Origin: Roseofilum halophilum BLCC-M91
GTDB lineage: Bacteria; Cyanobacteriota; Cyanobacteriia; Cyanobacteriales; Desertifilaceae
Length of the DNA: 64,000 bases
Assembly: GCF_030068445.1 (NCBI RefSeq)
Contig: NZ_JAQPOK010000036.1
Coordinates: forward strand, 1-64,000
Direction: 5' to 3'
Positions 1,230 to 61,622 of this stretch are shown piece by piece. A program made the translations under genes and the position numbers. Numbering within the stretch: the stretch's first letter is position 1; every line of letters starts with the position of its first letter. Below the pieces are notes generated by a model. It had not been told where the DNA came from. It was given only the letters and a program-made list of their open reading frames with translations, and searched no databases.

Positions 1230-1355
1230 GAGTTGTAAGAGCTAGGGTGAAGACAAACAATATAAAACAAATCTAAACATAATTTAGCAGACAGTTTCCC
1301 TTTTTATCTGTTCCAATCAAGAGCAAAGATAAACGATCGCAAAGAAGTGGTGAAG

Positions 1356-3506
1356 ATGGTTAAATTTTTCGAGCAGTTGAAGCGCTTTCTTGGGAGTCAA
1401 CCGAGTTCTCCCCCCGATCTAGCCTCCGATCCCGTTCAGGCTAAATCTCCGATCCCAGAGTCAGATATCGGGTTAGTTCTGCAACGGGGGGGCGAACAAT
1501 GGGTTTTAGAAAAGGCCCCAGATCGGCTCACGGTGGCCGTGAAGTCCCAGACCTCTCCAGATTGGGCCAGGGATCTGCCTTCTTTAGCCACTCGCCCCAT
1601 TGACACCAAACTCTCAGAATTAACCGTCGATCCCCAAAGCTTGGAAACGGCCATTACTTCGGCTCGCAATTCCCAAGATGTGGCCTTTGCCAGCCATGTC
1701 TATCAGATCAAAGATGCGCCGGGAACCTACACCTATTTGTCCAACGAGATGACCATTCAATGGTCAGAAACAAGCGATAAACCAACCCGCAACGCCCTGA
1801 TCCAACAGTATGGCTTGCGGGAGATCAAACCCGTGGACATGCTCCCCCATACCTGGGTCTATCAACTGACGGAAAAATCTACCGAAAATCCAATTAAAAT
1901 TGCTAACCGTCTGATGGCTTCCCCAGCCGTAGTTGCGGCTGAACCCAATTTAATTATTCCCAGCCAACCCATGTATCGCCCCACGGATGGGTTTTATGGT
2001 CAACAATGGTATCTGAACCATAATGGGGGCAATTATCTGGCCACCGGGTCTCATATCGATGCTGAACGGGCTTGGGATATGATTAGGGGCGATCGCTCCA
2101 TCGTCGTTGCCGTTGCCGATGATGCCATGGATCTCAACCATCCCGACTTCCAAGGACTCGGCAAAATTGTCGCCCCCAAAGACTTCAAAGACCAAGACTT
2201 TATCCCCCAACCCGGAGGCCTGGTAGAAAACCATGGAACCTCCTGTGCCGGAGTCGCCATTGCCGAAGAAAACGGCTCTGGGATCGTCGGTGTTGCCCCC
2301 GGATGCTCCCTGATGCCCGTTCGTACCACTGGCTTCCTCGATGATAATTCCATCGAACAACTCTTTGATTGGTGTGCCAGTCGAGGCGCTGCCGTCATTT
2401 CCTGTAGTTGGGGGCCAGCCGCCGTTAATTTTCCCCTTTCCCTGCGCCAAAACGCCGCCCTTACCAAAGCCGCCACCCAAGGCCGTCAGGGCAAAGGTTG
2501 CGTGATTGTCTTTGCCTCTGGCAATGCCAACCGCCCCATAAACGATACGGTTTATGAGCAAGGATGGCCCAATAATGTCATTTCTGGCAATACCCGATGG
2601 TTAGCCGGTTTTCCCATTCATCCCGATGTAATTGCCGTTTCTGCCTGTTCCAGCCTCAGCAAAAAAGCCATTTACAGCAACTGGGGCAAAGAAATTGCCG
2701 TTTGTGCCCCCTCCAATAATGCCCCTCCAGGGATTTGGTTACAGCAAACCGGATTTATCCCAACCCCTCCCGCAGTCACCAGTGCAACTCCAGGGTTAGG
2801 GGTATTTACCACTGACCGGGTAGGGGGGGCAGGCTATGGTACGGGGGATTTTACGGGCACATTTGGCGGCACGTCTAGCGCTTGTCCGATTGTGGCTGGA
2901 GTCGCTGCCCTCGTCTTATCCGCTAATCCGGATTTAACGGCGGCTCAGGTGAAGCAAATTTTGATCTCGAATACTGATAAAATTACTGACCTAGACCCCG
3001 ATCCCCAGTTTGGCTTTCGCAAGGGGACTTATGATGCTCAGGGCCACTCTGAGTGGTTTGGCTATGGTAAAGTGAATGCCTATAAAGCAGTTTCGGCTGC
3101 CCTGCGATCGCGTCCTACTCCTCCTACTGTCAGTCGCTGGATTCAACGCCAAAACTATGCCAGCGTCGCCATTAGAGATTATGATAGTCGCGGCATTAGT
3201 AGCTCGATTTACATTTCTGAAAGCAATTCATTACGGGATATCCAAGTCACCGTCAATATCGATCACAGTTTCTTAGGCGATATTCAAGTGAGTTTAATAG
3301 CGCCCAACAATCAAACGATTTTGCTGCAAAACCGGACATTAGCCAGACAAACCCAACTTCAACATACCTATACTTCTTCTGAGCGCCCCTTACTGAAAGA
3401 TTTAGTGAATCTTTCCGTTAAAGGCGTTTGGAAATTACAAGTCATTGATTATGCTTTAGGCAATACCGGCACGTTAAGAGGTTGGGTATTGACATTAGGG
3501 ATTTAA
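1356..3506 (+). CDS. Subtilisin-family (S8) serine protease with C-terminal P-domain
   Basis: The protein has 716 residues. Residues 1-20 are a basic-aromatic amphipathic helix (MVKFFEQLKRFLG) followed by a Ser/Pro-rich linker. About 110-200 resembles the inhibitory propeptide of fervidolysin-like proteases, ending VVAAEPN. The S8 domain has the Asp motif VAVADDAMDLNHPD (D255/256), His in NHGTSCAG (H293), oxyanion Asn in ASGN (N390) and nucleophile Ser in GTSSACP (S507). The Asp motif reads DDA in place of the usual DTG. Residues about 590-716 form a P/proprotein-convertase beta domain (SLRDIQVTVNIDHSFLGD ... GTLRGWVLTLGI). There is no ordinary signal peptide. ATG at 1356 is chosen over GTG at 1347 because AGAAG lies about 8 bases upstream of the ATG. 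Confidence 0.9.
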   Translation: MVKFFEQLKRFLGSQPSSPPDLASDPVQAKSPIPESDIGLVLQRGGEQWVLEKAPDRLTVAVKSQTSPDWARDLPSLATRPIDTKLSELTVDPQSLETAITSARNSQDVAFASHVYQIKDAPGTYTYLSNEMTIQWSETSDKPTRNALIQQYGLREIKPVDMLPHTWVYQLTEKSTENPIKIANRLMASPAVVAAEPNLIIPSQPMYRPTDGFYGQQWYLNHNGGNYLATGSHIDAERAWDMIRGDRSIVVAVADDAMDLNHPDFQGLGKIVAPKDFKDQDFIPQPGGLVENHGTSCAGVAIAEENGSGIVGVAPGCSLMPVRTTGFLDDNSIEQLFDWCASRGAAVISCSWGPAAVNFPLSLRQNAALTKAATQGRQGKGCVIVFASGNANRPINDTVYEQGWPNNVISGNTRWLAGFPIHPDVIAVSACSSLSKKAIYSNWGKEIAVCAPSNNAPPGIWLQQTGFIPTPPAVTSATPGLGVFTTDRVGGAGYGTGDFTGTFGGTSSACPIVAGVAALVLSANPDLTAAQVKQILISNTDKITDLDPDPQFGFRKGTYDAQGHSEWFGYGKVNAYKAVSAALRSRPTPPTVSRWIQRQNYASVAIRDYDSRGISSSIYISESNSLRDIQVTVNIDHSFLGDIQVSLIAPNNQTILLQNRTLARQTQLQHTYTSSERPLLKDLVNLSVKGVWKLQVIDYALGNTGTLRGWVLTLGI

Positions 3507-7638: not shown

Positions 7639-10600
7639 ATGGATTTTTTGAAAAAATTCTTCCGCAACAACGCCCCTAAAACCCCCAAAACTAATTCTAA
7701 TCAAGGTCAGACCTTCATCCTTGAACCCATCCTTACCCCTTCAGGTTTGGGTTTCGATGGAGATGGAGGAGACGAAATTCCCCCCTTAGACCCAGACTTC
7801 GATATCGATCTAGATCCTCCTGATGGTGAAGAAATTGATATTCCTGACGATACAAGTGCTTCAGATACAGAACCTACAGAAAGTACAGAAGAGAATAATA
7901 CAGAAGACAATAATACAGAAGACAATAACTCAGACGTTAGCGGAGGTGACATAGAAGATTCAGACATAGAAGATTCAGACATAGAAGAAATCTCCTATAT
8001 CACCTCCCTTACAGAAAATCGAGCCGAAGATGAAGGTTTAGAAACACAGGAAAATCCAACTAATGACGAAGTAGAAGTTGATGGTCAAAAGATTGTAAAT
8101 TCTGAATCGGATGGCGGGCAAGAAACCCTAGCTGCATCCTCAGTTAACCGTACTCAAGCAGACGGAGACTCTGAAGATGAACTTCAACCGAGTGAAACCC
8201 AAACGACTGAAACCGGAGAAGAAATTGTCAACAATACGGAAGAAGAGAAGGAAGAAATTGTCCCCGTTTTAGAGATTGAGCAACCCAATTTTACCTTTGA
8301 TTCCGGAGTCTTCACCGTTGGCGAAACCGGAGAAGTTGGAGTAGATTTCCTCTTTGATGGTGGTGGATATAAAGGTGAACTGGCCATCTTTTCTTTAGAT
8401 GGAATGGATGAATTTGAAGCCGGTTCCGAGGAATTTATCCAAGAAGCTGCAACTCGTGCCTTGAGTAACTCAGAGCAAGGTTATGTCGTGATTTCTGACG
8501 CTGAAGAGGGTGCGAAATTTAGCGGCAACTTGGGCGAGCGCGACCAAAATGATGGGGATTATTTGGGGGTGAAAACTTTTAAGATGCGCTCTGGCGATGA
8601 GTTTGGGGTGATGTTGGTTCCCAATAAGACTGTAGCCAGGGTTTTGGATAATCCCAGTATTGGGGGTTCCGGTCGTCCTTTGTTTTCCATGGTAACGGCG
8701 AATCCCCATGAAGCCTTTCATGTGGGCCAAATTGCCGATGTGACGGGAGATGGTTCTACGTTTGTGATGGAAGATATCCGCGTTGATGGTAAGACCGATG
8801 GGGATTACAATGATGTGATTTTCCAGGTTAGGGGAGCAGAAGGGAAGGCTACGCTGTTGGATAGTGCGATCGCCTCTGACAAAGAATGGCGCTATTCTGA
8901 TCTTGGGCAAGCCTTGCTCGAATACGCCAAACCCTACATCACCCCTGAGTCCGTAGAAACAGAAGTCACAGATCTCATTCAGGACGTACAAGGATTAACC
9001 GATGCCTTGCAAGACGCAGTAGAAACTCTAGAACCTGAAGTTGTAGAACCTCCTGAAACCCCTGAAGAACCGACTCCAGCACCAGAAACTCCCACTTCTG
9101 AGCAGAACGAGCAAAATTCAGATACTGAGGAAACCGAGACTTCTGACAACTCCACTGCTGAGACTTCTAATTCTGAGCAGAACGAGCAAAATTCAGACAC
9201 TGAAGAAACCGAGAATTCTGACAACTCCACTGCTGAGACCTCTAATTCCGAGCAGAATGAGCAAAATTCAGACACTGAGGAAACCGAGAATTCTGATAAC
9301 TCCACTGCACAAACTCCAGATACTGAGGAACCCGAACATATTCATCACGAACATGAAGAACCCTCAGCCACCGATAACCTCATCGCTCGGTTAGACCATT
9401 TAACCACGCGACTCGAAGACGCGCAGGATGCTCCCGTTTCCACCGAAGAAGCAGAACAACTGCAAACCTTGGTGCAACAGGTAGAAACCTTAACTGAAAC
9501 CCTCGAAGAACCGGAGTATCAATCCTTCTCCGAGCGGGCAGAATTAGCCGTAACGCGAGTCGTTGAGCGCTTAGAAAACGTCGCCCAACGCATCGTTCCC
9601 ATTGGCGAAACTCCTCCAGAATTTGAGTTTGCCGAAACTGCGCAACCCCTAGTCGGTATCATCGACACCGGATTTAGCGGGGATAATCCCGATATTGACT
9701 ATGCTCGCATTACCTTGGGTCAAGACCATATCGACAACGACGATAATCCCCTATTGTCCGAAGGAGAAGGCAACGAACACGGAACCCATATCCTGGGAAT
9801 TATCGGCGCAACCGAAAATAACGGTATCGGTATCGATGGCATCAATGACCAAGCGCCCCTATGGGTAAGTCGTGCCGTAGGTTCTGGAAAATGGGCTGAG
9901 TCATTAGTTGAATTTGTCGATGCAGCGCGAGAGTCAGGACAACCGAATGCGGTGGTGAATTTGAGTATGGATTTAACTCAAATTGATGCCCAAGGAAATG
10001 TCACCACTCGCTATGAGTTTACCCAACAAGAGTGGGATGCTATTGAATATGCTCGTGAACATAATGTGTTGATTGTAGCTGCTGCCGGAAATGATGGCGG
10101 GGTGATGTCGGCGTTGGGACAAGCTTCTCAGGAGTTGGATAATATTCTTACCGTCGGTGCTGCTGAACAAGTGAATCTAGACCTATCTGTGGCTGAAGGT
10201 TTCGAGCGAGTAGACTATTCCAGTTATGGAGAAGGATTAAATCTGGTTGCTCCTGGAGGAACCGATGAATATCCGATTTTATCCACCGTTGGTAATGGCG
10301 TAGGAACCATGACCGGGACTTCAGTAGCAACAGCAAAAGTTACGGGAGCAGCGTCTCAAGTTTGGGCCGCTAATCCAGATTTAAGTTATCAGCAAGTGGT
10401 GCGAATTCTCAAGGAAACAGCGACTGATTTGCATGAAGCAAATCCCGATAATGAAACTGGGTTTGGCTTGTTAAATATTGCCGCAGCCGTTCAGTTGGCA
10501 ACCGTAACGAAACCCGAAATTTACGAGCGTCCTACTATTGCAATTCCAGAGACTTGGAGTGGAGAAGGTCGAGTTACTGCTACGGAACGTGCTGCAAATT

Positions 10601-11574
10601 ATCCAAATTATCCCATTGTCTCAGAAAATTTCAGTGGCTGGGTTGGGCCAACAATAGGTGTAAATCTTCGCAATACTCCTGTTCATGGCGATCGCGGGCC
10701 TGTTAACGAACCTTATCGTAAAACGCTTTACTTTGATGCCTGGACTTATGGCAGTCGAGTCAGTGACTTGTGGTTAAACCGTCCAGATGAGCTATGGTAT
10801 CGAGTGCGTGGAACAAGTTACTGGGTTCCGAGTGCTTATATCTGGGGTTATCCAGGCAGTAAACCACCTGTACTTGCTCCACTGTTGCCAACCCCAACGC
10901 CTACTCCAACTCCAACCCCAACTCCCACTCCTACGCCTCCACCAGCTAATCGTCCAACTCCCGTCTCTCCTCCTACTGGCCGTTCTTATACCATTCAACG
11001 AGGGGATACTCTCTGGGCAATTGCTCAACGCTTCTTAGGTAATGGTAGCCGTTGGCGGGAAATCAAGGATCGTAACGGTAATTCTTTTAACTCAACTTCT
11101 GCAAGGTATTTGCGTATTGGTCAAGTGGTTTACCTTCCTGGTGGTTCTCCATCTCCGTCTCCCACTCCAACACCCCAACCATCGAATACCTGGCATCATC
11201 CCCTTCCAGGAGCGCGAGTAACCAGTGAATATGGGCCGCGTTGGGGACGTTTTCATTACGGTATCGATTTAGGTGTACCAACAGGAACTCCAGTTAAAGC
11301 TGCTAAAGCTGGTCGAGTCGTTTATGCTGGTTGGGATACGACAGGATATGGAAACTTAATCAAGATTCAGCATTATGATGGCACGATGACGTTCTATGCT
11401 CACCTATCTCGGTTTGGAGTCAGTGTTGGACAGTCAGTTAGTGGAGGAGCCTACATTGGTAGAGTTGGTAGTACAGGCAATTCTACGGGGCCTCATCTGC
11501 ATTTTGAAGTCCGTGTATCTCCTTATCGATGGAAAGTTAATAACCGCAATCCTAGGAATTACATCAAATTCTAA
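7639..11574 (+). CDS. Multidomain subtilisin protease fused to LysM and M23 endopeptidase, with DUF4114 domain
   Basis: The protein has 1311 residues. Order: basic-aromatic N-terminal helix ([10 protein letters not shown]); very acidic Asp/Glu/Ser/Thr region (about 40-210); DUF4114-like domain (about 215-400) ending [13 protein letters not shown]; three 25-residue acidic repeats (about 486-560); S8 subtilisin domain with D676 (IIDTG), H714 (HGTH), N818 (AAGN) and S895 (TGTSVA); SH3-like segment (about 1000-1072); Pro-Thr linker; LysM (about 1115-1169, [16 protein letters not shown]); second linker; M23/LytM endopeptidase with H1206-x3-D1210 and H1286-L-H1288. It has no ordinary signal peptide. 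LysM and M23 act on peptidoglycan, so the protein probably works at or outside the cell wall. ATG at 7639 is preferred to GTG at 7624. Confidence 0.9.
9094..9318 (+). repeat. Three 75-bp in-frame coding repeats
   Basis: Three tandem 75-base units encode a 25-residue acidic motif beginning [14 protein letters not shown] and ending SDNSTAET. Units differ at a few third positions and at T/N after ETE, so the copies are diverging but kept in frame. They lie between the DUF4114-like domain and the protease domain. Confidence 0.9.
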
Positions 11575-11658: not shown

Positions 11659-11724
11659 TTGGGGAGATACGGGGGAGTTTTGGCGATCGCGCCAGCGATG
11701 CGGAGCATTATCGCCCTTCCAGCA

Positions 11725-11806
11725 CCCCAAGAAACCGGGTTTTTCAGGACACTGTTGCGTCTTAAGCGATATCGGCGGCAAAAACCCGGTTTCTGAAGCT
11801 TAGGGA
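11725..11806. repeat. Palindromic element, copy A
   Basis: The left arm is CCCCAAGAAACCGGGTTTTT and the right arm is AAAAACCCGGTTTC followed by a partial GGG end, around a spacer of about 35 bases with GCGATATC. The upstream flank (11684-11716, GCGCCAGCGATGCGGAGC...) is shared with copy C at 12951-12982. This copy lies upstream of the first toxin-antitoxin pair. Confidence 0.85.
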
Positions 11807-11899
11807 CGATCTTGGGATGAGATTTCACTTCCAGGCGATTGTTACGCTCGGTCGCTATGATAAACTTCTAAAGTACGTCTGTTTACGATCGGTGAGATT

Positions 11900-12133
11900 A
11901 TGAACTTTGTTTCCTTATCAGCGCATTTTGATGGGAAATCAATCCAACTCGATGAACCCTATAAACTCGAACCTAATACTAAACTGATTGTCACGATTAT
12001 TCCCGAACAAGCAGAGGAGCAAGCATCTTGGTTAAAACGCTCCAGAACTCAACTCAACTGCGCCTACAGTAATGATGATGATTACCCTCTTGATGCGATA
12101 AAAGTTCCTAATCCCGATTATGCAGGAAGCTGA
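11900..12133 (+). CDS. Putative antitoxin of MazF/PemK pair 1
   Basis: A 77-residue protein (MNFVSLSAHFDGKSIQLDEPYKLEPNTKLIVTI...) of a small conserved cyanobacterial type seen upstream of MazF-like toxins. It resembles no classical MazE; the N-terminal strand pattern may form a short AbrB- or DUF2281-like fold, and the C-terminal tail (DDDYPLDAIKVPNPDY) probably binds the toxin. It overlaps the downstream toxin by 14 bases, the usual arrangement of a type II pair. The antitoxin role is inferred from this context. Confidence 0.65.
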   Translation: MNFVSLSAHFDGKSIQLDEPYKLEPNTKLIVTIIPEQAEEQASWLKRSRTQLNCAYSNDDDYPLDAIKVPNPDYAGS

Positions 12134-12461
12134 TGTTGTTCTTACGCCAATTCCTCAAGCGGATGGACAAATTAAAAATCGTCCTGTCATTCTTTTGCGA
12201 GAACTGCCACCTTATCAAGATTTCTTAGTTTGTGGAGTGAGTACCCAACTCAATCAACAAGTCATGGGTTTTGATGATATCATTGCCTCTACCGATCTCG
12301 ATTTTATCACAAGTGGCTTACGAAGTGATTCTTTGATCCGCCTTGGCTTTCTGGCTGTAATTCCTCGCCAGCAAATTCTTGGTTCTATTGGCAAAATATC
12401 ACCAGAACGACACCAACGATTGCTGAAGACTTTAAGTGATTATCTCGTCAATTCTCCTTAG
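12120..12461 (+). CDS. MazF/PemK-family toxin, pair 1
   Basis: A 113-residue protein. MQEADVVLTPIPQADGQIKNRPVILLREL matches the MazF/PemK opening (strand, G/A-D-V-V, then K-x-RPV(V/I)), and the rest (DFLVCGVSTQ, GLRSDSLIRLGFLAVIPRQQI) fits the family's barrel. These toxins are usually sequence-specific mRNA endonucleases, held inactive by the antitoxin that precedes them. Compared with pair 2 the sequence is quite different, so the pairs are not recent duplicates. Confidence 0.75.
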   Translation: MQEADVVLTPIPQADGQIKNRPVILLRELPPYQDFLVCGVSTQLNQQVMGFDDIIASTDLDFITSGLRSDSLIRLGFLAVIPRQQILGSIGKISPERHQRLLKTLSDYLVNSP

Positions 12462-12496
12462 TGAATCGGCGATCGCCCCTTCCATCCTCTCCCCCA

Positions 12497-12605
12497 CCCC
12501 AAGAAACCGGGTTTTTAGGTCACTTTTGCTGCTTCAGCGATATCTGTGGCAAAAACCCGATTTCTGACTTTGGGGCGATCTTTGGATGAGAAGGGGGCGA
12601 TCGCT
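12497..12605. repeat. Palindromic element, copy B
   Basis: Same unit as copies A, C and D in the same orientation: CCCCAAGAAACCGGGTTTTT ... AAAAACCCGATTTC ... TGGGG, followed by a shared 3' flank, CGATCTTTGGATGAGAAGG plus GGGCGATCGC. It starts 35 bases after the first toxin gene. Confidence 0.85.
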
Positions 12606-12639
12606 CATTTGCTAAAATTAATAGCAGGCTCATTCAGTA

Positions 12640-12753
12640 GCAGTAGTGCCGTGACACGACTAAAATGAGGCAATAGGATTTTGCTTAAATTCACAAATTT
12701 CAAGAACCCTAGCGATTTTCTAATGCCCTAAATTAGCTGTGTCACGGCAGTAG
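12640..12753. mobile_element. MITE-like element with 14-bp terminal inverted repeats
   Basis: TAGTGCCGTGACAC at the left and GTGTCACGGCAGTA at the right form near-perfect inverted ends around about 85 bases of AT-rich sequence with no coding capacity. Similar ends appear singly at 53205-53215 and 63392-63407. This suggests a non-autonomous element moved by a transposase elsewhere in the genome. Confidence 0.65.
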
Positions 12754-12920
12754 GGTGCGTTAGTCGGGAATCAATTTCAGACTGAATCAGTCAATTAAAA
12801 AGCCCGACGCAGGGCACCAACTTTACACAAATAAAATCAACCGGTTTTCGGTGCGTTATGCGGGGAATACAATTTACTCGACTTCGCCAACTGTTAACTC
12901 CCCGCTAACACACCCTACCC
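12752..12920. repeat. GGTGCGTTAG-type palindromic repeat
   Basis: TAGGGTGCGTTAG at the left end is answered by CTAACACACCCTA at the right, with internal pieces GACGCAGGGCACC and GGTGCGTTATGCGGGG. A shorter relative is at 4157-4190. Together with the flanking copies it explains the whole gene-free stretch 12462-13096. Confidence 0.65.
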
Positions 12921-12989
12921 GGTAAGAGGTTGCTCATTTTCCCAGAGTGCGATCGCGCCAGCGATGCGGAGCATTATCGCCCTTACCCA

Positions 12990-13097
12990 CCCCAAGAAAC
13001 CGGGTTTTTAGGTCACATTTGCTGCTTAAGCGATATCTGTGGCAAAAACCCGATTTCTGACTTTGGGGCGATCTTTGGATGAGAAGGGGGCGATCGC
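12990..13097. repeat. Palindromic element, copy C
   Basis: Same unit and orientation as copies A, B and D. Its 3' flank (GGGGGCGATCGC) runs directly to the stop codon of the second toxin gene at 13097, so the end of that gene may have been set by the insertion. Confidence 0.85.
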
Positions 13098-13426
13098 TAT
13101 TGGATGATTTCCAATATTTTGGCGATCGCCTCGTTTAATTTTTCTGGCTTCAGTTTACCCGCTCGATACAGTATGATTCCTCGATCGGCCGTAAACAAAC
13201 GATTGGGTCTAATATTACTGTTTTGGTTCAGTCCACCCTCACTAAAATCATCCGTTTCCAGAGTAATTGCATAGCGATCGCTAATTTTCTGGCTCGTAAC
13301 TTGACATAGAATTACATCATCTCCTGTTAAAGTGGCTATCACACAAGCTGGTCTGCGCTTAGCTTGGGTTAAATCTGAAAAGGGGAAAGGAACAACCACC
13401 ACATCCCCTTTTACAAATTCTGCCAT
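13097..13426 (-). CDS. MazF/PemK-family toxin, pair 2
   Basis: A 109-residue protein with the clear MazF/PemK opening FVKGDVVVVPFPFSDLTQAKRRPACVIA, a central ILCQVTSQ strand, and the typical end SNIRPNRLFTADRGIILYRAGKLKPEKL. These toxins cleave mRNA in single-stranded regions; the Arg in KRRPA and the Thr/Ser of QVTSQ correspond to conserved active-site positions. It overlaps the upstream antitoxin by 16 bases. The last residues (ILEIIQ) abut palindrome copy C. Confidence 0.85.
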   Translation of the reverse strand: MAEFVKGDVVVVPFPFSDLTQAKRRPACVIATLTGDDVILCQVTSQKISDRYAITLETDDFSEGGLNQNSNIRPNRLFTADRGIILYRAGKLKPEKLNEAIAKILEIIQ

Positions 13427-13602
13427 GCTTCATCCTCCTCTAAGCTCAACCAATCTTTTTCTAAAGAGGATTGACTGAGCAAGCTAGTTTCTAAGGTGTG
13501 GCGATCGCGTTTTTGTTTCAGAAACCGCAGAAAATCCCAGACCTCTTCTAACATGGCTTCAGGAAGATCTTCTATTTCTTTGAGAAATAACTCTTTGTCC
13601 AT
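13411..13602 (-). CDS. DUF2281-type antitoxin, pair 2
   Basis: A 63-residue protein with the pattern MDKELFLKEIEDLPEAMLEEVWDFLRFLKQK, typical of DUF2281 antitoxins: a short helical dimerisation segment followed by an acidic toxin-binding tail (SLEKDWLSLEEDEAWQNL). It is translated ahead of the PemK toxin with a 16-base overlap. The function is inferred from this coupling and family resemblance. Confidence 0.75.
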   Translation of the reverse strand: MDKELFLKEIEDLPEAMLEEVWDFLRFLKQKRDRHTLETSLLSQSSLEKDWLSLEEDEAWQNL

Positions 13603-13635
13603 AAAACTGCATTAATCAATACAAAGGTTAGAACC

Positions 13636-14103
13636 TCAATTGTACCAGGTGTTATTTTCTCGTTCAAATCCTGGCCCTTCCACCACCCCAAGAAACCGGG
13701 TTTTTAGGTCACTTTTGCTGCTGAAGCGATGTCCGTGGCAAAAACCCGGTTTCTGACTTGGGGGCGATCTTTGGATGAGAAGGGGGCGATCGCCAAATGG
13801 GTCAAAACAAGTATAATTAACAAAACCCAACACAATCTCACAAGGGCAAAACTTTAGGTTCGGAAAAGATGGCAAGTCGCGAGCATATTCTTCAGCAATT
13901 TCGGAGAAGCCATCACGCAATGGCTTAACCATCAATTCTGCTAGTACCAAATCACAAGCAAAACCTTGACATTTTCCCAGCTCTATCAGCTCAAAAATTT
14001 TTCTGGCTAGTTCGCCAAATTCCTGATTCCCTTCGATAGCGTAAATAAAAATTACGCTGTCGAAAGCCACAGCAACACCTTCCAGGTCTTCTAATCGCGC
14101 CAT
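13636..14103 (-). pseudogene. VapC-like PIN toxin, 3' half replaced by palindrome copy D
   Basis: Residues 1 to about 85 match a PIN-domain toxin: VAVAFDSVIFIYAIEGN with the first acidic residue, a helix EFGELARKIFELIE, and DLVLAELMVKPLRDG with the second. After KFCPCEI the similarity ends. The frame then runs through the repeat (GDRPLLIQRSPPSQKPGF...), coding for low-similarity sequence to a chance stop. The second half of a PIN domain, with the remaining acidic residues, is absent here and in the next 100 bases. The gene overlaps the AbrB-type antitoxin by 13 bases. It is most likely an inactive VapC, which would make the antitoxin dispensable. Confidence 0.75.
13686..13793. repeat. Palindromic element, copy D
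   Basis: The fourth copy in the same orientation, with full 20-bp arms (CCCCAAGAAACCGGGTTTTT / AAAAACCCGGTTTC ... GGGG) and the shared 3' flank to GGCGATCGCC. It lies inside the reading frame of the PIN toxin remnant. Confidence 0.85.
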
Positions 14104-56161: not shown

Positions 56162-57658
56162 TTAACGAACCTTTTCTAAGCTGCGGATTTTGGTGTCAAA
56201 CTTATCGGTTAACAGACTTAAAACCGTCCGTTTCCGCACCTTAATGTTGGCACTAATATCCATCCCAGCTTGTAAATCCAGTTGCTTATCATTAATGGTG
56301 AAATACTGTTTATCCAACTGAATTTTGGCCGGGAAGGCGTAGAAGGGTCGCACTTGCGTTGGTTCTAGGGCATCGGAACCAATCCAAGTTAGGGTTCCTT
56401 GAATGGTGCCAAATTCAGAAGAGGGGAAGGAGGAGACATCTAACTCCACTTCCATGCCTTCATCGACAAAGCCAATATCCTTGTTGGGGATATAGACTTC
56501 AGCAATTAAGGCATCATTGGGGACGATCGAGAGTAGGCGTTCTGTGGCTTGGGCCACGTGGCCCGTACCGGCTTGTAAATCAAAGACTACCCCACTAACG
56601 GGCGCTCGTAGTTCTTGATAACCCAGGGCCTGTTGGGCTTTGATCAGTTCCCCTTCGACTTCGGCTAACCGTTTTTTGGTCTCAATTTTGGCACGGGCCA
56701 GTTGGGAATCGATCTCAGCGATGCGCCGTTGGTTATCGGCAACTCTCGTTAAGATATCTTTGGCAGAAATGGCGATCGCATTGGATAAGGCTTGTTGAGA
56801 CTGGGCTTGTTCTACCCGCAACCGTTGTTCCTCTAGCTGAAGCTGTTCAATTTCCCCTTCCCTAGCCAGCAGCTCGTCCTGATAGCGTAGCACTTCCTGC
56901 TGTTGGCGATCGTACTGGAGTTGGGAGAGGGCCCCTTCTTCCACGACGGGACGAATACGATCTAGAGTGTTCTCATGAATGGCTAGGGTTTCTTTGGTCT
57001 TAGCTATCCGAGGCACGATCGCACTGGCTTGGCGTTGGGTGCGGTTGATTTGTTTGTCTAACTCCGAAATTTTCAGCCGAGCAGCTTCTACCCTAGATTG
57101 GTATTCTGCACGAGACGCACTCAGCAGTCGATCTTGGTTTAGATTAAAGGCACTACTGACCGGTTGATTGGGGTTATAGCCATCGAGTTGGGCATTGAAG
57201 TATTCATTTTCTGCTAACAGGGTTTGGCGCAAGCTGGCCAGAGAGGCTAATTCTGGGGGGCCACCTTGGATGCTTCCTCCAGAGAGAATGCGATCGTAAA
57301 TTTCTATTTCTTCTTGCAGAGTAATTTGTTGCTTGGTGAGCGATTCAATATCCGCTTGGGGAGCCGTGGGGTCAAAGGTAATTAACAGTTCACCCTGTTG
57401 TACCACATCCCCATCTTCGATCAGGATTTCCCGCACCATGCCACTGGTAGGCGATTTCACTTCATTGACCGATCCTTGAGGTTCCAGTTGTCCTTGAGCA
57501 GGAACGGCCTGTTCGATTTTGGCGATCGCCGCCCAAGCAATTCCCGAAGACGTAATCAATAACAGCAGCCATACCAGGATTTGAGACCAAATCACTGGCC
57601 GCTCTAGCAATATAGGCTGTTCGACATAAGTTTCTGTGTATTTAGCTTGCGTTTTCAT
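56162..57658 (-). CDS. HlyD-family membrane fusion protein
   Basis: The protein has 498 residues. One N-terminal membrane helix (about 28-48, ILVWLLLLITSSGIAWAAIA) is followed by a lipoyl half-motif (AQGQLEPQGSVNEVKSPTSGMVREILIEDGDVVQQGELLITFD), a long coiled coil (about 100-355) and the second lipoyl half with a beta barrel (LRAPVSGVVFDLQAGTGHVAQATERLLSIVPND). It bridges an inner-membrane exporter and an outer-membrane channel in type I secretion. The ABC exporter lies just upstream on the same strand (gap 93 bases, with a tandem run). Confidence 0.93.
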   Translation of the reverse strand: MKTQAKYTETYVEQPILLERPVIWSQILVWLLLLITSSGIAWAAIAKIEQAVPAQGQLEPQGSVNEVKSPTSGMVREILIEDGDVVQQGELLITFDPTAPQADIESLTKQQITLQEEIEIYDRILSGGSIQGGPPELASLASLRQTLLAENEYFNAQLDGYNPNQPVSSAFNLNQDRLLSASRAEYQSRVEAARLKISELDKQINRTQRQASAIVPRIAKTKETLAIHENTLDRIRPVVEEGALSQLQYDRQQQEVLRYQDELLAREGEIEQLQLEEQRLRVEQAQSQQALSNAIAISAKDILTRVADNQRRIAEIDSQLARAKIETKKRLAEVEGELIKAQQALGYQELRAPVSGVVFDLQAGTGHVAQATERLLSIVPNDALIAEVYIPNKDIGFVDEGMEVELDVSSFPSSEFGTIQGTLTWIGSDALEPTQVRPFYAFPAKIQLDKQYFTINDKQLDLQAGMDISANIKVRKRTVLSLLTDKFDTKIRSLEKVR

Positions 57659-57751
57659 AGGTAATGGGGTATGGGGTACTGAGCGAAGTTTTAAGGGTTT
57701 CGGCTTCTCGCCGACCTCAAAATTGTTAATTGTTAATTGTTCATTGTTGTT

Positions 57752-60700
57752 CTACAATTGAGAGTCCTGTTGCTCAAACAGACAGTAATACCGTCCTTGG
57801 AGCGCCATCAGTTCAGCATGGGTTCCCTGTTCCACAACGGAACCTTGATCCATCATAATAATTACATCCGCATTCCGCACCGTGGTTAACCGGTGGGTAA
57901 TAAAGAAAACGGTTTCGCCTTTGAACGTTTGGGCTAGATTTTGGCACACTTGCCGTTCACTATCATAGTCTAGAGCAGAAGTGGCTTCATCAAGGATCAG
58001 TAAGCGAGGTCTCTGGAGGACAGTACGGGCGATCGCGATCCGTTGCCGTTGTCCCCCTGATAAATTCGCCCCCCGTTCGCCCACAACCGTGTTATAGCCC
58101 TGGGGCAGAGACATAATAAACTCGTGAGCAACCGCCACCTTAGCCGCTTCGATAATTTCCTGCTCCGTAGCATCGGGGTTCGCCAGAGCAATATTCTCTT
58201 GTACCGAACCATTAAATAACAGCGTATCTTGCAAAACCACCCCAATTTGCCGACGCAGGGAGTACAGTTCCACTTTACCAATTTCTAACTGGTCTACCAG
58301 GATACGCCCAGAACCGGGTTCATACAATCGTTGCAGGAGCTTCATCAACGTGGACTTACCGGAACCACTTTGGCCCACAATCCCCACAAATGTACCTTGG
58401 GGAAACTCTAGATTCACATTCAAGAGTTGCCAGGTATTGGCTGTGGCAAACCGGAAAGAAACATCCTCATATTTCACATGGCCATGAATCGGAGGCATGG
58501 AAATATTGGAGCGGTTGGCTTCATCGGCTTCTGGTGAGGCATCCAAGACATCGGAGAGTCGTTCAATGGATAGCCCAGTTTCCTGGAAGCTCTGCCACAG
58601 TTGAATCAGGCGCAACAGGGGCGAGGTGGTATAACCGGCAATAATCCGAAAGGCGATTAACTGCCCCAGGGTAAAGGGGTTATCGGTGGAGGCCGTGGTG
58701 AGTACCATTTGCGCTCCAAACCAGAGAATTAACAGCCCGGAGAGCTTGTTTAAAAAGCCACTAATGGAACCGGCGGTGCTAAAGGTGAGAACGGAGCGAA
58801 ACCCAGATTTAATGTATTTGGCGTAGCGCTCTTGCCATTGCCAACGGGATTTTAGCTCAATATTTTGGGCTTTTACGGTTTGAATCCCCGATAGCACTTC
58901 CACCAGGTAGGATTGCACGTCGGCGTAGCGTTCGGCTTTATGGCGCAGTTGGCGGCGGACAATGGGGGAAGCGACAATGGTTACCAGGGCAAACAGGGGA
59001 ACCGTAGCTAGGGCAACCAGGGAGAGCTGCCAGCTATAGATGAACATCACGGCGATGTAGACGACGGAGAAGACGGCATCTAGGACAACGGTGAGGGCTG
59101 TTCCGGTGAGAAATTGGCGGATGTTTTCCAATTCGTTGATCCGGCCGGCTAGTTCCCCAACCCGGCGGCGATCGAAGTATTCTAGGGGTAGCCTGAGCAG
59201 GTGGGCAATGACTTCTGAGCCGAGTCCCAGGTCAATACGGTTGGTGGTATCGACAAACAGATAGGTTCTGAGCAGGGTGAGGATGGCTTCAAAGATGGCC
59301 ACTCCGAGCAGGAACAGCCCTAAGATATCTAGGGTATCGATGCTCCGTTGCACCAGCACTTTATCGATAATTACCTGGGTGATCAGGGGGTTGGCTAGAC
59401 CAAAGAGTTGCACGAAGAAGGAGGCGATGAAGACTTGGATCAGGATGCCGCGATATTTGATCAGGGCAGGGACGAACCAACTGAGACCAAATTTTTCCCG
59501 TTGTCTCTCTGGGGGGGACTGGAGCAGCAGCACCGATCCTTGAACAACTCCCCATTCTTCGGCAAAGTCGGCCACTCGCCTGCGGGTAATGCCTTTTTCG
59601 GGCACTGCCATTACCACTTCTCGTTCGCTGATGCGATAGAGGATGGCAAAGCTTTGCCCCCAGGGAATCATGGCGGGGCCTTTGATGCGGTTAATGGAGG
59701 CGGCGGGCAGTTGTACGAGTTGGGCTTGGAGTCCCATCATTTCGGCGATCGCCCCACAAACCGTTAAGGAGATTTGACCGGTACTTCGCAGTTGATTTTC
59801 CAGAACTTTACGAATCACATCCCGACGGAAGGAGACTCTCATGAACTGGCTCAACATCTTAAAACAGGCCATGGGGGCATCAATTTCTCCTTTGCCGCGC
59901 ACAAAAGGATAGGTGATGCGAGAGTCACTGGCTTCTTCCAGCTCTGGGATATTTTCCGGGGCGCGGCTGATATCAAGTTCACTCTCTTCCTTCTCTAGGC
60001 GATCTCTTCGACTCCGTTCGGGGAGCGCTCTGGGGGATGGGGAGATGGGGAGTTTGGGCGGAGTCGATGCGGGTTCTAGGGCCTCTTGAGTTTCTTGAGT
60101 CTCCTGAAACGCGGAAACGCCCAATAACCTGGCTCCCCATCTGCCTTTAATGGGCAGTCTTTGATTGGGGGTTTCCGCCAGGCTATCTAAGGGAATTTTT
60201 GATGCGGGGGTAAAGTCGCCTACAGTTCCACTACTGACGAGCCACAGCCGGGAGGGGTTAAGGGTATTAATCAAATCCCTTACTTGTAGGTTGCCAGAGG
60301 GGAGGTTTACGGCGGTGGCATTGGCGATCGCCTTAAACGTCAGTTCTTTTAAGTCTGCTGTGCCATCGGCTCGCCGCCCCAGTTCTACACTCAGCAGTTC
60401 AAATACCTCGCTGATGGAGACCTGTTGAGCCAGGCTCTCTCTAAATTTCGGTTCGCGATCGATTAAGCGCAGAAATTCTTCCGCCCCTAATGTAATACAA
60501 ATTACTTCCGTAGAAGCCAGGGCCGTTTCACATCCGCTTTGGCGCAGCAAACTGGCCCATCCCATCACCTCTCCGGGTTCGGCTCGTTTTAAGCTCACGG
60601 TGGTTTGTCGCCGTTGGTCGTAGCCTAAAATCCGCACTTGACCTTGATAGAGGATGGAAATTTGAGCCGGAACTTTTTCCCGAATCAGGATCGGTTGCCC

Positions 60701-60826
60701 GATCGCATAACGCAGCAGTTTACACCCAGAGGTCAACTGCTCTAGGGTGTTGGGATTAAGCTGATCGAAGGGCGGTATTTTCGCTAAAAACCCTTGGATT
60801 TGAGAAGGCGAGACAGCTTGAGTCAT
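57752..60826 (-). CDS. Type I secretion ABC exporter with cNMP-binding domain and degenerate C39 domain
   Basis: The protein has 1024 residues. A cyclic-nucleotide-binding-like domain is about 15-130 (DQLNPNTLEQLTSGCKLLRY...). After a linker, a C39-like domain spans about 305-440; its catalytic Cys position reads DAPMACFKML (Ala for Cys), and the His and Asp positions read QSFAILY and VMAVPEKG, so it is proteolytically dead. Six membrane helices (about 455-720) and an ATPase follow: VGIVGQSGSGKSTLMKLLQRLY, LSGGQRQRIAIARTVL, LLILDEATSALD. Such exporters recognise substrates through the dead C39 domain instead of cleaving a leader. It is coded between a parvulin and HlyD, an arrangement seen in cyanobacteria. 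Confidence 0.93.
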   Translation of the reverse strand: MTQAVSPSQIQGFLAKIPPFDQLNPNTLEQLTSGCKLLRYAIGQPILIREKVPAQISILYQGQVRILGYDQRRQTTVSLKRAEPGEVMGWASLLRQSGCETALASTEVICITLGAEEFLRLIDREPKFRESLAQQVSISEVFELLSVELGRRADGTADLKELTFKAIANATAVNLPSGNLQVRDLINTLNPSRLWLVSSGTVGDFTPASKIPLDSLAETPNQRLPIKGRWGARLLGVSAFQETQETQEALEPASTPPKLPISPSPRALPERSRRDRLEKEESELDISRAPENIPELEEASDSRITYPFVRGKGEIDAPMACFKMLSQFMRVSFRRDVIRKVLENQLRSTGQISLTVCGAIAEMMGLQAQLVQLPAASINRIKGPAMIPWGQSFAILYRISEREVVMAVPEKGITRRRVADFAEEWGVVQGSVLLLQSPPERQREKFGLSWFVPALIKYRGILIQVFIASFFVQLFGLANPLITQVIIDKVLVQRSIDTLDILGLFLLGVAIFEAILTLLRTYLFVDTTNRIDLGLGSEVIAHLLRLPLEYFDRRRVGELAGRINELENIRQFLTGTALTVVLDAVFSVVYIAVMFIYSWQLSLVALATVPLFALVTIVASPIVRRQLRHKAERYADVQSYLVEVLSGIQTVKAQNIELKSRWQWQERYAKYIKSGFRSVLTFSTAGSISGFLNKLSGLLILWFGAQMVLTTASTDNPFTLGQLIAFRIIAGYTTSPLLRLIQLWQSFQETGLSIERLSDVLDASPEADEANRSNISMPPIHGHVKYEDVSFRFATANTWQLLNVNLEFPQGTFVGIVGQSGSGKSTLMKLLQRLYEPGSGRILVDQLEIGKVELYSLRRQIGVVLQDTLLFNGSVQENIALANPDATEQEIIEAAKVAVAHEFIMSLPQGYNTVVGERGANLSGGQRQRIAIARTVLQRPRLLILDEATSALDYDSERQVCQNLAQTFKGETVFFITHRLTTVRNADVIIMMDQGSVVEQGTHAELMALQGRYYCLFEQQDSQL

Positions 60827-60869
60827 ATCAATTAAAAATTAAAAATTAGAAATTAAAAATTGGGTTGCA

Positions 60870-61622
60870 TCAGGTTTCTTGTTTGTCGGATGACCAAAGC
60901 GAGCGGATTGGCCCTAGTTTTTGGACTTCTTCTCGCATCCAGAGTTCAAATAATTCATCAATTAACTGTCGTCTCATGGCATCATCAAATTTGGCAGGAA
61001 TGAATTTTTCCAATCGGACAATAACATACCATTCTCCTAAATTCCGAGGCGGCCAGAGTTGGCCCGGTTGGGAAATCGAGAGCAGTTTGGCCAGGATGGG
61101 GTGGGGCGTGGAAACGGAAACCGGCCCTAACACTCCTCCCGTATGGGATTCCGGCCCTTGGGAGTATTCGCGGGAGAGATCGGCAAAGCTGGCTTCTTCT
61201 TCTTGGATGCGAAAGTAGATTTCTTGGGCTAATCCGAGATCTTTGGTGCGAATCAGGGAATAGACTACTTGATCGAGGTGGGTTTTGCGACTGAGAAAGT
61301 AGGATTCTACTTTATTGCCCCATTTGGCCTGTTTAAATTTTTCGATCAGTAGGGGACGGATAGACACTTCTTGGAATTGTTCGGCGCTCATGCCTTGGTT
61401 TTCTAGCCAAGCGGCTTTGTCCTCTGGGGTGGTAAACTTGAGTTGACTGTGGACGGATTTGAGGGCCGCTTCGATTTCTTCGGGTGTGCAAGAGTAATCG
61501 GCGATCGCCCGATCGATTACTAATCCGCGCACCACATGGGGCATTAATTGATAACGGGTGAGCAGTTCTAAAATTTCATCTGTTTGAATGACTCGGTTGC
61601 CGACTTGTAGAATTTCTACCAT
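60870..61622 (-). CDS. Parvulin-type peptidyl-prolyl isomerase / chaperone
   Basis: The protein has 250 residues. A SurA-like N-terminal helical domain (about 1-115, including VVRGLVIDRAIADYSCTPEEIEAALKSVHSQL) is followed by a rotamase segment (QEIYFRIQEEEASFADLSREYSQGPESHTGGVLGPVSVSTPHPILAKLL ... GEWYVIVRLEKFIP). There is no signal peptide, so it acts in the cytoplasm. It is coded ahead of the ABC exporter and probably keeps export substrates unfolded or delivers them; that is inference from the gene order. Confidence 0.85.
   Translation of the reverse strand: MVEILQVGNRVIQTDEILELLTRYQLMPHVVRGLVIDRAIADYSCTPEEIEAALKSVHSQLKFTTPEDKAAWLENQGMSAEQFQEVSIRPLLIEKFKQAKWGNKVESYFLSRKTHLDQVVYSLIRTKDLGLAQEIYFRIQEEEASFADLSREYSQGPESHTGGVLGPVSVSTPHPILAKLLSISQPGQLWPPRNLGEWYVIVRLEKFIPAKFDDAMRRQLIDELFELWMREEVQKLGPIRSLWSSDKQET

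Follow-up and report, generated by a model that had tools for sequence, protein, structure and literature searches.

A predicted lectin-subtilase chassis with exchangeable wall-cutting or toxin ends and a candidate export leader in filamentous cyanobacteria

Polymorphic toxin systems combine a constant N-terminal part for trafficking or adhesion, an internal protease (subtilisin is among the processing proteases listed for them) and exchangeable C-terminal effectors that include peptidoglycan-cutting enzymes (PMC3482391). Exoenzymes of the lysostaphin, zoocin and LytM type, in turn, join an M23 endopeptidase to a wall-binding module. We analysed 64,000 nucleotides of Roseofilum halophilum BLCC-M91 (contig NZ_JAQPOK010000036.1, positions 1 to 64,000; hereafter the window), in which a gene on the forward strand (7639..11574) encodes a 1311-aa protein that resembles both. 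The protein belongs to a family that shares with polymorphic toxins the conserved N-terminus, the internal protease, the variable C-terminal effectors and the lectin, LysM and SH3 modules. The family differs from them in a leader and a DUF4114-S8 chassis that are not described in PMC3482391, in the lack of an immunity gene at the window locus, and in ends that are mostly wall hydrolases rather than nucleases. Its candidate trafficking feature is the conserved leader, for which there is no known machine. The protein is probably a polymorphic, leader-directed lytic exoprotein that attacks foreign walls; its export, sugar binding and target are what we infer in this reading.

The open reading frame (ORF) runs from ATG 7639 to the stop at 11574; the alternative start is GTG 7624, and ATG was favoured by alignment of the family N-termini. 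The Pfam scan revealed DUF4114 (PF13448; residues 316-399, E 9e-22, 78.3 bits against a gathering cut-off of 27), Peptidase_S8 (residues 670-943, 9646..10467, E 3e-35), LysM (residues 1117-1167, 10987..11139, E 7e-9) and Peptidase_M23 (residues 1204-1293, 11248..11517, E 2e-34), all over the curated cut-offs. An initial annotation had proposed a single chain of these four domains with complete catalytic residues in both enzymes, and both points were borne out: the Asp/His/Ser triad and oxyanion Asn of the S8 domain (D676, H714, S895 and N818) and the HxxxD/HxH zinc site of the M23 domain (H1206, D1210, H1286 and H1288) are all present. In the comparison with the Protein Data Bank (PDB), the S8 domain grouped with subtilisins and the M23 domain with lysostaphin, LytM, DipM and zoocin A. 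Like these exoenzymes, the window protein carries its M23 domain together with a wall-binding module; unlike them, it has no Sec signal, and its chain also contains a subtilase and a lectin-like domain. The leader (residues 26-36), the missing signal peptide, an SH3-like region and a paralogue family with variable C-termini go beyond the initial annotation.

The query that recovered relatives was a 24-member alignment of the extended DUF4114 region (~215 aa), in which most sequences have 55-76% identity to the window protein; an earlier scan of genome contigs with the single window protein as query gave no matches. The N-terminal chassis recurs at about 100 loci of other filamentous cyanobacteria, and relatives came from Oscillatoria, Lyngbya, Microcoleus, Planktothrix, Spirulina, Symploca, Coleofasciculus, Tychonema, Kamptonema and others, and 107 family loci were scored for neighbours. 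The chassis opens with a leader or with some other N-terminus that lacks a signal; a linker and the extended DUF4114 domain follow and then, in most members, the S8 domain. Alignment of the S8 domains showed 72 with the full triad and oxyanion Asn; a minority of members have lost residues or are fragments. Plasmid-borne chassis-like proteins also occur, and the plasmid matches with an S8 domain include one from a Calothrix (Nostocales); no phage record had a DUF4114 domain at E 1e-10.

The host genome (4.85 Mb, 169 contigs) contains twelve DUF4114 matches and nine leader-bearing genes, recognised by their coding for FILEPI.TP. Two of these nine are on contigs, C33 and C34, that end just ahead of the DUF4114 domain, and headless family proteins on C100 and C105 start there, which implies that the assembly broke inside the repeated chassis. 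The paralogues in this genome end in ricin-B plus M23, a lipase with Ig-like domains, an alpha/beta hydrolase or RHS repeats, and CHAP, C39-like and P-domain ends were found in other genomes; one member (L061:84-4136) ends in CHAP followed by the toxin domain Ntox44. Among 70 family C-terminal regions, the hydrolases were M23 (19), CHAP (13), Amidase_3 (5) and Lipase (3), and the binding modules were SH3_3 (16), LysM (11) and LGFP (10). The M23, CHAP and Amidase_3 counts indicate at least three unrelated types of peptidoglycan hydrolase on one chassis. Judged from domain matches, this analysis showed a chassis with exchangeable putative wall hydrolases or toxins and predicted wall- or glycan-binding modules.

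Some members depart from this plan. Five of the Microcoleus/Lyngbya/Tychonema type (L123, L128, L139, L145 and L148) have an N-terminal PPC-like domain instead of the leader and lack an evident Sec signal. At L126, L134 and L141, a DUF4114-only ORF is followed or overlapped by another ORF that has both DUF4114 and an S8 match; these pairs may be genes that are split or phase-varying, or may reflect masked gaps in the assembly. The M23 end at L063:7213-7725 (genome G012) lies in a reading frame other than that of the rest of the gene, which suggests a frameshift or interruption.

Comparison within the genus revealed exchange of modules between close relatives. The copy in genome G005 is syntenic, following menD as in the window, with identity mostly at 92-100% between residue 251 and about 950; a LysM then replaces the SH3-like module (16-20% identity), after which the following LysM and M23 are again 80-96% identical. 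The SH3b-like region replaced there (residues ~987-1095, 10597..10923) was recognised in the window protein by similarity to the SH3_3-matching segment of L106. The G004 copy, which has no menD neighbour, keeps an identity of mostly 92-98% across residues 201-1100 and ends in a ricin-B lectin and a different M23 in place of the window's C-terminus. The acidic linker is only 28-62% identical to these same-genus relatives versus 92-98% in the domains that follow, and the leader region is retained at 70-84% while the linker drifts.

These exchanges bear on the idea that the protein acts on the septal or filament peptidoglycan of its own producer, for instance in filament breakage with S8 as activator. 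M23 and LysM domains do act on peptidoglycan, and the named carriers are mostly filamentous cyanobacteria. However, the cargo is swapped among strains of the same genus, lipase, Ntox44 and RHS ends occur in the family, and same-genus genome G002 lacks the chassis, although genes for essential remodelling would be expected to be stable. Self-wall remodelling is thus improbable. The initial annotation had suggested a wall-remodelling or lytic protein; the lytic, wall-directed half of that suggestion is supported by the intact M23, the LysM and the three interchanging hydrolase types.

The leader region (7639..7758) has a basic amphipathic start followed by an 11-residue motif at residues 26-36 (7714-7746). 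Throughout the family the motif comes after a short basic segment, and alignment of 71 distinct leaders showed that L-E and T-P are invariant inside F-[IV]-L-E-P-I-[LY]-T-P-S-G. No hydrophobic Sec signal was found by a hydropathy scan, used in place of a signal-peptide predictor: the best 14-residue value in the first 60 residues was 1.2 for the window protein and 0.6-1.7 for the family. A looser pattern recovered leaders beside DUF4114 matches in G040 and G064, as well as second copies in G107 and G187, and in G040, G107 and G187 an M50 gene lies within ~5 kb of such a leader on the same contig; most of the low-specificity matches of this pattern outside the family are probably chance. The lasso-peptide motif YxxPxL (PMC10368454) was set aside as a match and kept as an analogy only: the common form of the leader contains P-x-L, but the Pro and that Leu vary in some leaders while L-E and T-P do not. 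Being short, N-terminal and accompanied by an S8 domain in most members, the leader might instead be an inhibitory propeptide of the subtilase and no export tag. This is highly improbable, since the leader is conserved in a 3413-aa member with DUF4114 and RHS repeats that lacks an S8 match (L050:7806-18047), so that it is not simply an S8 propeptide, and some members with complete S8 residues have other N-termini.

At 17 of the 107 family loci, a gene for an M50 peptidase, for HlyD or for both is found within 4 kb; in one case the two are fused. This linkage is far beyond chance, since genomes mostly hold one M50 copy. In 194 genomes of the class, M50 was present in 16 and the exact leader pattern in 6, and all six leader genomes had M50 (hypergeometric p 1.2e-7, uncorrected for phylogeny, as are all these comparisons). 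For the extended DUF4114 domain in the same 194 genomes, 12 had both, 4 had M50 only, 24 had DUF4114 only and 154 had neither (p 3e-7). Among 39 relatives in which the chassis was called from strong matches (p 1.4e-6), 12 had chassis and M50, 23 had neither, three had the chassis only (G013, G028 and G032) and one had M50 only (G022, partial). The same-genus genome G002 has neither chassis nor M50.

The first 200 residues of the M50 protein were modelled as two tandem b3a3 domains with a predicted local distance difference test score (pLDDT) of 84, low values being confined to residues 1-11 and 100-112. In the model they show a b3a3 winged-helix fold similar to that of leader-binding domains, namely the recognition elements (RREs) of ribosomally synthesized and post-translationally modified peptides (RiPPs), known from PqqD, lasso B1, TbiB1, LynD/TruD and ThcOx. 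The best PDB matches were leader-bound RREs, lasso B1 with leader (Z 10.8) and TbiB1 with leader (Z 10.2 and 10.0), along with ThcOx and PqqD. The family leader, like the leaders of RiPP substrates, is short, N-terminal and conserved. The systems differ in that the presumed substrate here is a protein of 1,000-5,000 residues versus a small peptide, and in that the RRE-like domains sit on a site-2-type protease, where leader binding is a prediction and the Pfam PqqD family was not matched. The RRE-like pair and its co-occurrence with the leader suggest an undescribed export or processing route. We tentatively propose, at somewhat less than even chances, that the tandem RRE-like domains of M50, together with HlyD, read the leader and deliver a polymorphic arsenal of proteins that each combine lectin, subtilase and wall hydrolase, that is, a leader-guided export or processing of giant proteins.

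A second candidate exporter lies in the window itself, 45 kb from the gene: a PPIC-like ORF, a cNMP-binding C39-ABC transporter and a 498-aa HlyD-looking ORF form a type I secretion operon on the reverse strand (56162-61622). The family proteins could then be scavenging or predatory exoenzymes that leave by this ordinary type I route, need no leader machine of their own and digest dead or neighbouring cells for nutrients, with the leader as a generic type I signal. Lipase and alpha/beta hydrolase ends would suit scavenging, the ABC component is present in 38 of the 39 relatives, and PPIC/SurA-like foldase genes homologous to that of the window lie near nine family loci, in eight cases at a distance of 1-120 bp and in the same orientation. 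On the other hand, the ABC component is equally present in genomes without the family (as nearly universal, it was dropped as a discriminator between genomes), the Pfam scan of the window protein reported no RTX repeat family, C-terminal nonapeptide repeats included, and it is M50 that tracks the family and is physically linked to it at many loci. An ordinary type I route alone is therefore doubtful, and the PPIC/C39-ABC and M50/HlyD systems may cooperate in export.

The initial annotation had also raised contact dependence. A classical contact-dependent polymorphic toxin with cognate immunity proteins (PMC3482391) would share with the family a constant N-terminus ahead of variable C-termini, a protease inside the chain, and ends of the RHS and Ntox44 types. 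A homologous ORF of ~200 aa, a putative accessory or immunity gene, lies downstream at six loci, in five of them on the same strand and 5-143 bp away (L105:4449-5135, without Pfam match, L056:14211-14894, L073:10364-10960, L080:4568-5179 and L163:17138-17761). This ORF is, however, similar at all six, whereas different toxin ends would be expected to come with divergent immunity genes, and no contact apparatus was found beside family genes. Contact dependence was not supported at the window locus either, where no immunity-like gene was found within 500 bp downstream; there are only short ORFs (<=77 aa) and repeats until a PemK-like gene at 12120. We consider such a toxin unlikely. The lack of an evident immunity gene would be in line with targets at a distance, an argument made for PVC toxins (PMC3482391). 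As further neighbours, TpsA-like filamentous haemagglutinin ORFs occur near family genes at nine loci (e.g. L103, L152, L064 and L156).

The extended DUF4114 domain (~215 aa, 8284..8928) is the presumed binding part of the chassis. Its AlphaFold model (pLDDT 75) had LecB/PA-IIL-type lectins as its best structural matches: all 12 best Foldseek matches were of this type, as were the 17 best rows in VIA-align, at Z 5.1-6.3 (below 8) with the next at 4.0. The acidic loop ED......DGDYND (residues 378-392, 8770-8814) corresponds to positions E168, D169, D177, D179, Y180 and D182 of the family alignment, which are invariant, with N181 mostly kept (E-D...D-x-D-Y-[ND]-D). It is comparable to the calcium and sugar residues E95, D96, D99, D101, N103 and D104 of LecB (PMC8752737), with extra residues between the ED and DxDxND parts. 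A hidden Markov model search of the DUF4114 alignment against PDB sequences detected no homology to LecB-type lectins and gave only a marginal, repeat-driven match to another lectin. DUF4114 has already been linked to LecB-type lectins through the lectin domain of PilY1.1 (PMC9109919), and mannose-resin binding was reported for the Acanthamoeba DUF4114 domain, AcMBP (PMC11934332); the lectins compared comprise ~115 aa versus ~215 aa here. The initial annotation's "Ca-binding-like" domain does have a calcium-type loop, and from the model matches it is better read as a predicted LecB-type, Ca-dependent lectin that would bind sugar.

The remaining parts of the gene are linkers, repeats and a charged segment. 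The acidic, fast-evolving linker after the leader (7759..8283), delimited by repeat finding and same-genus identity, contains 15-bp repeat units at 7884-7928 and 7948-7988; a 75-bp tandem repeat (x2.8) at 9096..9308 encodes an acidic Ser/Thr/Glu linker, and a Thr-Pro repeat lies at 10888-10938. The acidic repeats noted earlier are thus real. A charged, probably helical segment ahead of S8 (9334..9618) is present only in some members and is missing where DUF4114 runs directly into S8 (L060 and L064). Elsewhere in the window, a separate subtilase with a proprotein-convertase P-domain lies upstream of menD (1347-3506, forward strand), and four copies of a ~70-128 bp interspersed repeat resembling a miniature inverted-repeat transposable element occur at 11683-13806 and also near the relatives in G004 and G005.

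Several findings weigh against a leader-directed lytic exoprotein delivered through M50. The M50/HlyD pair of the host genome lies on contig C104, not beside the window gene, and comes without an ATPase; the N-terminus of M50 has no Pfam PqqD match, and the winged-helix fold is common to DNA-binding proteins. G013 has the leader without a detected M50, many Microcoleus-type members begin with the PPC-like domain, and the co-occurrence statistics ignore phylogeny. The nearly universal C39-ABC exporter could export alone, the window gene has no immunity-like gene downstream, and the DUF4114 model is of moderate confidence with a middling Z of ~6.

In the mechanism we propose, the membrane M50 peptidase would recognise the leader on the cytoplasmic side through its two RRE-like domains, and M50 with HlyD, perhaps together with the universal PPIC/C39-ABC type I exporter, would process and export the unfolded acidic chain. 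Outside the cell, calcium would fold the chain and DUF4114 would bind surface or matrix sugars. The subtilase could trim its own chain or clear surface proteins of the target, and SH3 and LysM would anchor M23 on peptidoglycan, where it may cut the walls of competing or prey bacteria.

The architecture proved common in filamentous cyanobacteria, and we found no characterisation of it: neither the chassis nor the leader nor the RRE-like M50 pairing was described in the openly searchable literature (subscription papers lay outside the search), and public annotation of the family proteins goes no further than "S8 family serine peptidase" or "DUF4114 domain-containing protein". The individual domains and modular toxins are already known; the export principle is possibly new. 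The cyanobacterium that dominates coral black band disease belongs to Roseofilum, and its M23 enzymes were named as possible virulence genes without this family context (PMC5177637). As far as sequence comparison can tell, this is a large, hitherto overlooked family of secreted-looking proteins that joins a sugar-binding-type domain and a subtilase to a swappable, presumably wall-cutting or toxin end. If our reading is true, it would account for an entire class of very large cyanobacterial proteins whose annotation stops at S8 peptidase or DUF4114 protein, would identify a short tag that may steer giant proteins into export or processing, so that RiPP-type leader recognition would reach proteins of 1,000-5,000 residues, and would hint at how mat-forming cyanobacteria attack their neighbours.
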